From NCBI RefSeq assembly GCF_030944405.1, contig NZ_CP132339.1, forward strand, positions 4,464,001 through 4,528,000: 64,000 nucleotides of DNA. The letters run 5' to 3'. The DNA comes from Janthinobacterium sp. J1-1 (lineage in GTDB: Bacteria; Pseudomonadota; Gammaproteobacteria; Burkholderiales; Burkholderiaceae_D). Made by a program: the position numbers and the translations under genes. Within the stretch, counting starts at the first letter, position 1, and every line of letters begins with the position of its first letter. The notes beneath the pieces are model-generated. The model did not search any database and was not told where the DNA came from. It was given only the letters and a program-made list of their open reading frames with translations. Below, piece after piece: positions 35,411 to 37,671 of the stretch.

Positions 35411-36463
35411 CTATTTCTTCGGTGTCTGCCGTTCTTCCTGCAGCGCCAGCCGCGCCGCCATGCCGGCGTGCTCGCGCAGCAGGGTGTCGCGTTCCTGTTC
35501 CAACTGCCGCGTGCGCTGCAAGCCCGCTTCGGTCTTGTCGGCCAGCATGGCCAGTTGCCGGTCCTGCGTGGCCAGCGCCACTTTTGATTCATTGAGCGCC
35601 AGCATGACCGCTTCCAGCTTGGCCAGCAGGGCGTCGGCCGAAGCCGCCGCCTGCCCGTACTGATATTCGAACTGGTCGCGCTCGGGGCGCACGGTGGCCA
35701 GGGCCTCGCGGTCCGCCGCCGCGCTTTGCTCCAGGCGCTGTTGCTCCGCCTGCAGCTGGGCCAGGCGCATGTCCTGCTGCACCAGGGTCGCCTGCTGGCC
35801 TTGCAAGCGCTGCTGCAGCTGGGCGTTCTCCTGCTCCAGCCGGCTCAGCTGCTGTTGCTGCGTTTGCCGTTCCTCGCTGCGCTGGGCTGCCGATGCTTCC
35901 TGGTAATGGTCGAACTGCGAACGTACCTGCGCCAGCTGCCGGTTCAGTGCGGCGATTTCCTCGCCCCGGTCGGCCAGGCGCTGCGTCAATCCCGCATTGT
36001 CGCTGTGCAGGCTGGCCAGGGTGACGGCGCGAAAATGGTGTTCCTCCTTCAACTGGGCCAGGGCCTGCTGGGTGGCGCGCAGCTCCTGCGTCAGGGCGGT
36101 GCGCACTTCCGTCAATTTGAGGCGTTCCGCCTCGGTTTTCTTCAGTTTTTCCAGCGCCGCATCGAGCTCGATGCGGCTTTCCTGCATGGCAAGCTCCAGT
36201 TGCTGCGCCACGTCGCGCTGCTGCTTGTGATACACGCCGCGCATCGCCTCCATCAGCTCGGCCGGCAGTCCTGCCTCCGTTTTCACGGCGCCGGGCCCCT
36301 GGAACTCCTCCTTCCACCGCTTGAGCAGGGGCGCGATGGTGCTCTTGCTGCCCGTGCTGCCCAGCGCCTCGCGCACATTGTCGACCGTGGGATTGCGCCC
36401 ATCGGCGGCCACGATTTGGGCTGCTTTCATAACATCGGAGTACAAAATGCCGGCGCGAGCCAT
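35411..36463 (-). CDS. KfrA-type DNA-binding coiled-coil protein (TnpT-like)
   Basis: A 350-residue protein. The N-terminal 70 residues match the KfrA_N DNA-binding domain (V-D-N-V-R-E-A-L-G-S-T-G-S-K-S-T-I). From about residue 75 to 345 it is a Gln/Glu/Leu-rich coiled coil, for example R-L-E-Q-E-N-A-Q-L-Q-Q-R-L-Q-G-Q. Plasmid KfrA binds palindromes in its own promoter; TnpT of Tn4651-type transposons has the same layout and helps the TnpS tyrosine recombinase. This gene is divergent from a tyrosine recombinase over a palindrome-rich gap, which favours the TnpT-like reading. Confidence 0.85.
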   Translation of the reverse strand: MARAGILYSDVMKAAQIVAADGRNPTVDNVREALGSTGSKSTIAPLLKRWKEEFQGPGAVKTEAGLPAELMEAMRGVYHKQQRDVAQQLELAMQESRIELDAALEKLKKTEAERLKLTEVRTALTQELRATQQALAQLKEEHHFRAVTLASLHSDNAGLTQRLADRGEEIAALNRQLAQVRSQFDHYQEASAAQRSEERQTQQQQLSRLEQENAQLQQRLQGQQATLVQQDMRLAQLQAEQQRLEQSAAADREALATVRPERDQFEYQYGQAAASADALLAKLEAVMLALNESKVALATQDRQLAMLADKTEAGLQRTRQLEQERDTLLREHAGMAARLALQEERQTPKK

Positions 36464-36492
36464 AAAACCACCTATGAGCGAAATTTAGTAAC

Positions 36493-36513
36493 GTATTACA
36501 TGATACGTAATAC
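36493..36513. promoter_or_regulatory. Palindrome GTATTAC-N7-GTAATAC upstream of the KfrA-like gene
   Basis: Perfect 7-bp inverted arms at 36493-36499 and 36507-36513, 30 bases upstream of the KfrA-like start, in clearly AT-rich DNA. Further related half-sites (TATTACG, GTAACG) lie close by. Likely the binding site of the KfrA-like protein. Confidence 0.6.
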
Positions 36514-36562
36514 ACCATAATATTACGATATAAATTTTCAGAAAAATGCAGAAAAATAAGTC

Positions 36563-36581
36563 GCGATAAGATCGCTTATCG
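36563..36581. repeat. Overlapping inverted repeats in the recombinase promoter region (candidate crossover site)
   Basis: CGATAAG (36564-36570) and CTTATCG (36575-36581) are perfect arms with a 4-bp spacer; GCGAT/ATCGC around AAG (36563-36575) is nested in it. Together with ATAAG at 36556-36560 it has the size expected of a tyrosine-recombinase core site with two binding arms. It could equally be a regulator site. Confidence 0.4.
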
Positions 36582-36651
36582 TGGGTTAGAAGCGCGGTTT
36601 GCGTGGTATCCTGCGTTTTGCCCAGTACAAATCCCTGTTTTCCCGCATTCC

Positions 36652-37671
36652 ATGGCCCAGCACCCCCTGAAAAAATCGCCCGCCGCCACCAGGCTGGCCG
36701 TGGCGCCAGTACATGGCGCCCTGGTCGATGCCGAACTGGCCGCGCGCCACCAGGCTTTCCTGGCGGCCGCCACCGCCGACAACACGCGCCGCGCCTACCG
36801 CTCGGCCATCCGCCACTTTCAAGCCTGGGGCGGGGCGCTGCCGGCCGATGAATCGGCCGTGATCCGTTATCTGCTGGCCCACGCGGATACCTTGAACGCG
36901 CGCACCCTGGCCTTGCGCTTGACGGCGCTGTCGCAATGGCATGCCTACCAGGGCTTTTTTGACGCCGCGTCGACGCCCACCGTGCGCAAGACCCTGGCCG
37001 GCATCGCGCGCCTGCACGGCAAGCCGAAAAAAAAGGCCAAGGCGCTGCCGTTGGAAGACTTGGAACTCATCGTCGCGCGCCTGCATGAACAGGGCACGGT
37101 AAAAGCGCTGCGCGACAGCGCCTTGCTGCAGCTGGGATTTTTCGGCGGTTTCCGCCGCAGCGAGCTGGTGGCCTTGCGCGTGGAGGATGTCAGCTGGGAG
37201 CCGCAAGGCATGGTGATCACCCTGCCGCGCTCGAAAACGGATCAGTCGGGCGAGGGCATCGTCAAGGCGGTGCCGTATGGGGAAGGCATCTGCTGCCCGG
37301 CCACGGCATTGAAAAACTGGCTGGCGGCGGCCGCCATTGCCTCCGGGCCGCTGCTGCGCACCGTCAATCAGTGGGGCCATATCGCCGACAAACCACTGCA
37401 TGCGGGCAGCATCAACACGATACTGGAGGGCTGCGCCCGGCTGGCGGGACTCGATTATGTGCCGGAACTGTCCAGCCACAGCCTGCGGCGCGGCATGGCC
37501 ACCAGCGCGCACCGCGCCGGCGCCGACTTCCAGGCCATCAAGCGCCAGGGCGGCTGGCGCCATGACGGCACGGTCCATGGCTACATAGAAGAGGCGGGCC
37601 GCTTCGACAGCAATGCGGCCGGCAGCCTGCTGCGCAAAAAAACGGCCGCCAGGCAGAAATCTGGGGATTGA
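36652..37671 (+). CDS. Tyrosine recombinase/integrase (TnpS-like)
   Basis: A 339-residue site-specific recombinase with an N-terminal SAM-like core-binding domain (N-T-R-R-A-Y-R-S-A-I-R-H-F) and a C-terminal catalytic domain. The active-site set is complete: Arg168 (G-G-F-R-R-S-E-L), His276 and Arg279 (S-H-S-L-R-R), His304 (G-W-R-H) and nucleophile Tyr311 (H-G-Y-I-E). No phage genes, attachment repeats or tRNA are next to it. Divergent from the KfrA-like gene, as tnpS is from tnpT. The ATG has only a weak ribosome site. Confidence 0.9.
   Translation: MAQHPLKKSPAATRLAVAPVHGALVDAELAARHQAFLAAATADNTRRAYRSAIRHFQAWGGALPADESAVIRYLLAHADTLNARTLALRLTALSQWHAYQGFFDAASTPTVRKTLAGIARLHGKPKKKAKALPLEDLELIVARLHEQGTVKALRDSALLQLGFFGGFRRSELVALRVEDVSWEPQGMVITLPRSKTDQSGEGIVKAVPYGEGICCPATALKNWLAAAAIASGPLLRTVNQWGHIADKPLHAGSINTILEGCARLAGLDYVPELSSHSLRRGMATSAHRAGADFQAIKRQGGWRHDGTVHGYIEEAGRFDSNAAGSLLRKKTAARQKSGD

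Follow-up and report, generated by a model that had tools for sequence, protein, structure and literature searches.

The window, a stretch of 64,000 bp (G000:C1:4464001-4528000), lies on the 6.7 Mb chromosome of Janthinobacterium sp. J1-1, whose second contig measures 236 kb. A tnpS-like gene on the plus strand (36652..37671) encodes a tyrosine recombinase of 339 aa, and a tnpT-like gene on the minus strand (35411..36463) encodes a helper of 350 aa with a KfrA_N DNA-binding domain and a long coiled coil. The two ORFs diverge over a gap of 188 bp; frames, lengths and divergence are all as described in the first-pass annotation, made from the sequence alone. Pfam assigned the recombinase to Phage_integrase (E 8e-17) and the helper to KfrA_N (E 6.5e-19). 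Computation established the homology of the pair, the anatomy of its site, inheritance throughout the genus, purifying selection, a copy number close to one and the short distance to dif.

Both proteins were compared with those of Tn4651, taken from the plasmid pWW0 record, in which the tnpS and tnpT CDS were assigned by position and family. The recombinase shares 42% identity with TnpS over 306 aa (E 3e-68); between the helper and TnpT, identity is 33% over 206 aa (E 4e-13). TnpT of Tn4651 itself scores as KfrA_N (E 2.6e-26). Judged by these comparisons, the pair are true homologues of TnpS and TnpT, with a likeness beyond the family folds. The resemblance to the TnpS-TnpT module that had been proposed is thus borne out by homology, and also by the rst-like site between the genes (see below). 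Candidate catalytic residues of the recombinase, picked from the motif (R168, K195, H276, R279, W302/H304 and Y311), were unchanged across 32 genus loci. Excerpts of a 2020 paper state that TnpT has no evident homologue among other proteins (PMC7157771). In the open literature searched, a single paper mentions both KfrA and TnpT, and the two excerpts of it on KfrA make no connection between them.

An rst-like site between the two genes

In Tn4651, TnpT binds a 20-bp repeat close to its gene, and the crossover takes place inside a 33-bp repeat. Each repeat described here was assigned to the TnpT- or the TnpS-like protein by analogy with this Tn4651 work, which we assume to apply to the window. 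An rst-like site lies in the 188-bp gap, made up of an inverted repeat of the helper type and a core of 13-6-13 layout. The predicted TnpT-binding inverted repeat (TAACGTATTACATGATACGTAATAC, 36489..36513), identified from conservation and copy number, forms the tnpT-proximal part. A second box recognised by conservation (ATAATATTACGATAT, 36517..36531) contains an inverted copy of the CGTAATA motif, the inverted repeat being CGTAATA-8-TATTACG. The predicted TnpS crossover core (TAAGTCGCGATAA-GATCGC-TTATCGTGGGTTA, 36557..36588) was identified from its arm palindrome and conservation. This arrangement follows the rst plan, with helper repeat and core between the genes, that is given in excerpts of two publications (PMC4619425, PMC7157771).

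Across the 32 genus loci, the mean top-base frequency was 0.969 in the helper-type repeat region (36489-36514), 0.945 in the second box region (36515-36536) and 0.921 in the core (36557-36588), compared to 0.777 in the variable stretch before the core and 0.842 in the leader. The core arms agree at 10 of 13 positions, a score reached by 6 of 20,000 shuffled 32-mers. All 15 loci checked from other lineages and plasmids had an ATAA-6-TTAT core in the corresponding position; it was the best-scoring palindrome in 10 of them and was found only by pattern search in the other 5. In those five (pYS1, G022, G001, G219 and G283) a different palindrome outscored the core, and ATAA-6-TTAT stands approximately 95-100 bases into the stretch. 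The core arms of G171 are perfect (13/13).

The site is close to single copy. Scanning 17 genomes with the Janthinobacterium core pattern (up to 3 mismatches) gave 16 matches in 13 genomes. Thirteen matches adjoin the pair, one in each complete genus chromosome other than G015 (13/13), and three weaker ones lie away from it in G004, G032 and G014. The pattern was unmatched in G015, G022, G027 and the non-genus genome G040. The 21-mer at 36491-36511 of the helper repeat (up to 3 mismatches) occurred a single time in 16 of the 17 genomes. The core-like sequences away from the pair (G004:C1:3065947, G032:C1:3214177 and G014:C1:626782) have 2-3 mismatches, resemble one another and lie approximately 400-460 kb from dif.

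The spacer of the core has 7 variants among the 32 genus loci, and the site on the genome's own plasmid has TCGAGC where the window core has GATCGC. Such drift between species is expected if each site recombines only with its own copy. The spacer of the G283 pair core (L093), TGTATA, equals six bases of the E. coli dif pattern used, presumably by chance.

Inheritance and selection in Janthinobacterium

A recombinase match (E 1e-50) was found in 36 of 40 genus genomes, the window's own genome included; the four genomes with no match were G013, G021, G026 and G034 (82, 98, 88 and 83% complete, respectively). The helper adjoins the recombinase in 35 of these 36 genomes. The exception is G027 (L076, L049), in which tnpT and an rst core stand 54 kb from the recombinase gene and broken tnpA pieces adjoin tnpT. 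Reading this split as an integration at rst was not adopted, as no core was seen by eye in the stretch inspected upstream of the recombinase.

All 31 close copies (recombinase 80-92% and helper 78-95% identical) have at least one flanking gene in common with the window, G008 via an edge match only. The more distant G015 copy (71%) has two, and no convincing flanking gene in common was found for G001, G022 and G027. The neighbours checked are metabolic or regulatory genes retained across the genus, and there is no tRNA in the 64-kb window. An empty-site search over a set of 14 genomes that lacked a positive control matched the LysR neighbour in none of them at E 1e-100. The gap between the two genes measures 187-190 bp in 23 of the 31 close copies and 200-220 bp in the other 8, the latter lengths being estimates, six of which begin inside the recombinase alignment. 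The intervals flanking the pair vary across the genus, from 0.3 to 4.5 kb on the helper side and from 0.2 to 8.9 kb on the recombinase side. The nearby marR-lysR interval also varies (62 to 4812 bp); the flanking variation was therefore read as regional plasticity, and variable cargo was rejected as a sign of recombination.

Both genes are under purifying selection, with dN/dS about 0.14: the median over 32 loci was 0.133 for the helper and 0.142 for the recombinase, and 0.047-0.162 for four neighbouring genes. Stop codons were confined to the last codons of three recombinase stretches, and the helper had none in the 32 loci.

In the wider family scan, the recombinase of the pair was matched in 64 of 245 genomes and unmatched in 181. 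The trees of the recombinase and of the XerD-like protein show identical branching in genus g14 (G186, G153, G131 and G171), and both pair G219 with G269. Both also set G015 beside genus g1, with support of just 85/73 in the recombinase tree. Between-genus stems are longer in the recombinase tree than in the XerD-like tree, with long branches flagged, which makes separate captures per genus possible.

Mobile relatives in a Tn3-family transposon

The Tn3 transposase profile PF01526 had no match on the window's own chromosome; its three matches in this genome are all on the second contig. In the 64-kb window there was also no match to the tnpA and the 38-bp terminal repeats of a related transposon, in agreement with the absence of transposase and terminal repeats reported in the first-pass annotation.

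This related transposon is a 14.27-kb (14,267-bp) segment that two genomes of different genera, G133 and G239, have in common at 99.7% identity (L091:3975-18241; in G239, L081 and L096). It consists of 38-bp terminal repeats, tnpT, the site, tnpS, a tnpA whose open frame of 1048 codons has the domain of Tn3 transposases (E 9.5e-152), and some 8 kb of cargo, among it genes for a molybdopterin oxidoreductase and a LysR regulator. In G133 the segment is flanked by direct repeats of 5 bp (AGGTA); no flanking 5-bp direct repeat was found in G239. Its identity across two genera indicates that it moved recently. Cassette exchange at the core, with the G239/G133 block taken as recombinase plus cargo, was dropped as a reading, because the alignment covers the whole transposon including tnpT.

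Broken tnpA pieces and repeat remnants adjoin the G022 recombinase and the G027 helper. The 236-kb contig of the window's own genome (G000:C2, L054) carries a second TnpS (72%) with a repeat of the transposon type alongside, as well as three Tn3 transposase genes. The window copy, which has no tnpA, repeats or remnants, is read as the resolution module of a transposon without the transposon. The suggestion that the pair could be the core of an unrecognised mobile element is unsupported in the genus, and the relatives that move sit in a recognisable Tn3-family transposon. The plasmid tnpT/tnpS pairs L001 (pYS1) and L002 (pND6-1) have no Tn3 transposase annotated in 13-17 kb and are possibly orphan modules.

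Closeness to dif

All 14 complete genus chromosomes have a single dif. In the window's own chromosome, dif begins 3.7 kb past the window edge, at a distance of 31,084 bp from where the recombinase starts, and GC skew showed no sharp change across the window. Of the 53 genomes that have recombinase and dif on one contig (one copy counted per genome), 52 have the two no more than 151 kb apart, including 20 of 20 complete chromosomes; in draft genomes, the shared contig caps the distance that can be seen. The sole unlinked genome was G222 (2.1 Mb from dif). In the genus, the median distance was 36 kb (range 17-126 kb, 27 genomes). The count excludes the plasmid copy of the window's own genome and a further copy in each of G179 (46 kb from dif) and G239 (132 kb). 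The 53 genomes omit 5 from the genus in which recombinase and dif are on different contigs. From other genera they omit 6 with different contigs, 2 with only weak dif-like sites elsewhere, 7 in which dif was not found and 6 outside the dif scans. Two more omitted genomes have paralogues of 42-43% identity, at 83 and 55 kb from dif. Grouped by us into 14 lineages that are assumed to be independent, 13 were linked to dif (binomial at 0.0755 per lineage, 3e-14). The recombinase is oriented toward dif in 49 of the 53 genomes; of these 49, 27 go back to a single inherited event and one is G222, which is not linked to dif.

Two controls were analysed. Other Phage_integrase genes, XerC/D included, were within 150 kb of dif in 2 of 109 cases among the matches listed for the 20 complete chromosomes. 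By contrast, among the Tn3 transposase genes on dif-bearing contigs, 8 of the 13 long copies were within 151 kb of dif, as were 5 of the 9 fragments. Once the pair-linked genes were excluded (two long ones, in G133 and G239, and three fragments in that transposon or beside the G022 pair), 6 of 11 long copies and 2 of 6 fragments were near dif. Since Tn3 transposases show this clustering too, the location of the pair may be due to insertion bias. To some extent at least, location in the terminus characterises Tn3-family insertions in this bacterial family, and a dif-based function as the sole reading of the location was weakened by this control. Tn917 also prefers the terminus.

Distant TnpS paralogues (39-41%) were observed approximately 6-16 kb from dif (G030:C1:2831727 and 2847926, G007:C52:206855 and G020:C30:6341), with one on each side of dif in G030. 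Another distant paralogue, G036:C1:1466730, is 49 kb from dif.

Discussion

We put at about even chances the reading that the locus is a domesticated Tn4651-type resolution module, the likeliest use of which is accessory, terminus-proximal dimer resolution beside XerCD/dif. Domestication, one of the two options in the first-pass annotation, fits genus-wide inheritance and purifying selection at a locus without transposase or terminal repeats. A Tn4651-type transposon of the Tn3 family would have inserted near dif in a Janthinobacterium ancestor and lost its transposase and terminal repeats, with tnpT - rst - tnpS kept as an ordinary chromosomal pair. The KfrA-like TnpT homologue would bind the inverted repeat beside its own gene and organise the site, and the TnpS homologue would bind the two 13-bp core arms and exchange strands across the 6-bp spacer. 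Recombination between chromosome copies would then resolve dimers or unlink sisters, with the locus acting as a second site near the terminus alongside XerCD/dif.

We infer that such a system could act between sisters, inside a dimer or on a replicon whose core is compatible. With essentially one site per chromosome, recombination would mainly join two chromosome copies, which makes dimer resolution the most likely use. Having retained a recombinase that looks to be working, a helper and a single target, the cell may have put them to use.

Several observations argue against a dimer resolver. Genes like those of XerC/D, recognised by score and length, are present in the genus together with a single dif, which leaves no obvious need for a second dimer resolver. 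Most family genomes scanned (181/245) do not have the pair, and three genomes have a second core-like sequence. In E. coli, dif works in a zone narrower than 151 kb, and the distances found here, up to 151 kb, exceed it. Retention of the pair could serve another role. It is doubtful that, as a broader version would have it, the Oxalobacteraceae repeatedly recruited Tn3-family modules beside dif as a second dimer resolver, FtsK-independent or differently controlled, with directionality given by the KfrA-type helper and the system being part of the core genome in Janthinobacterium.

The alternative that survives best, which we hold tentatively to be possible, is that terminus insertion bias placed a Tn3-family copy here and that the decayed copy was kept for a regulatory or DNA-organising role, or by self-preserving autoregulation, with no dimer role. 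Terminus preference has been published for Tn7 TnsE and for IS200/IS608 (excerpts of PMC5371812). In line with such a bias, 8 of the 13 long copies of the Tn3 transposase gene on chromosomes lie near dif, one of them (G179:C6:357857-359029) just 355 bp away. The young 14.27-kb transposon also agrees with it, with its recombinase 14 and 120 kb from dif in the two genera and its 5-bp duplication in one. However, insertion bias alone leaves unexplained the genus-wide constraint on both genes and on both elements of the site.

It is improbable that the chromosomal rst serves as a landing site capturing plasmids or circular elements with a compatible core. IMEX elements use dif in a parallel manner, and the intervals flanking the pair vary. 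In a Nitrosococcus plasmid 3.2 kb separate the tnpS- and tnpT-like genes, and passengers between tnpS and tnpT have been published for TnXocp1 (excerpts of PMC4619425). Nevertheless, none of the 31 close genus copies has an insertion at the core, the marR-lysR interval also varies widely, and the split parts of G027 do not both have a core by eye. The spacer of the own plasmid also differs from that of the window, and spacers have drifted within the genus. Related pairs do move inside a Tn3-family transposon, but the reading of the pair as the core of an element that is still mobile is very improbable and largely refuted by the flanks that all 31 close copies have in common, inheritance throughout the genus, the presence of just one close copy on each chromosome and the lack of a transposase and of terminal repeats of the related-transposon type.

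If the pair works as in the domesticated-resolver reading, a transposon cointegrate resolver can turn into a chromosomal system, and XerCD/dif could be directly compared, within one terminus, with a resolver that depends on a helper. The short distance to dif (52/53), which many Tn3 transposases have in common, makes terminus targeting by the Tn3 family directly testable in this bacterial family. Among the matches listed, consisting of titles and the start of abstracts from the open literature with subscription journals mostly absent, there was no description of a chromosomal TnpS/TnpT pair beside dif.

The TnpS-TnpT-rst system of the Tn4651 (pWW0) subgroup has the same homologous recombinase and helper, with divergent genes and the helper repeat and core between them. 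Unlike Tn4651, the window pair has no transposase or matching terminal repeats and is a fixed chromosomal copy in the genus. The 14,267-bp transposon of G133 and G239, with a recombinase 71% identical, has the same tnpT - rst - tnpS order and is also near dif; it differs from the window pair in having tnpA, the 38-bp repeats and its cargo. XerS/difSL and XerH/difH are single recombinases encoded beside their own site (excerpts of PMC5357621). Similarly, the tyrosine recombinase gene of the window adjoins a single close site in the terminus. XerS and XerH replace XerCD, whereas the Janthinobacterium pair coexists with XerC/D-like genes and dif and has a KfrA-type helper in addition. By sequence, the solved recombinase structure nearest to that of the window is Cre of the Cre/loxP system of phage P1 (E 7.6e-10), which is phage- or plasmid-borne and has no known adjoining helper gene. 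A PDB search with the helper returned just four engineered-looking coiled-coil chains, with weak E-values.
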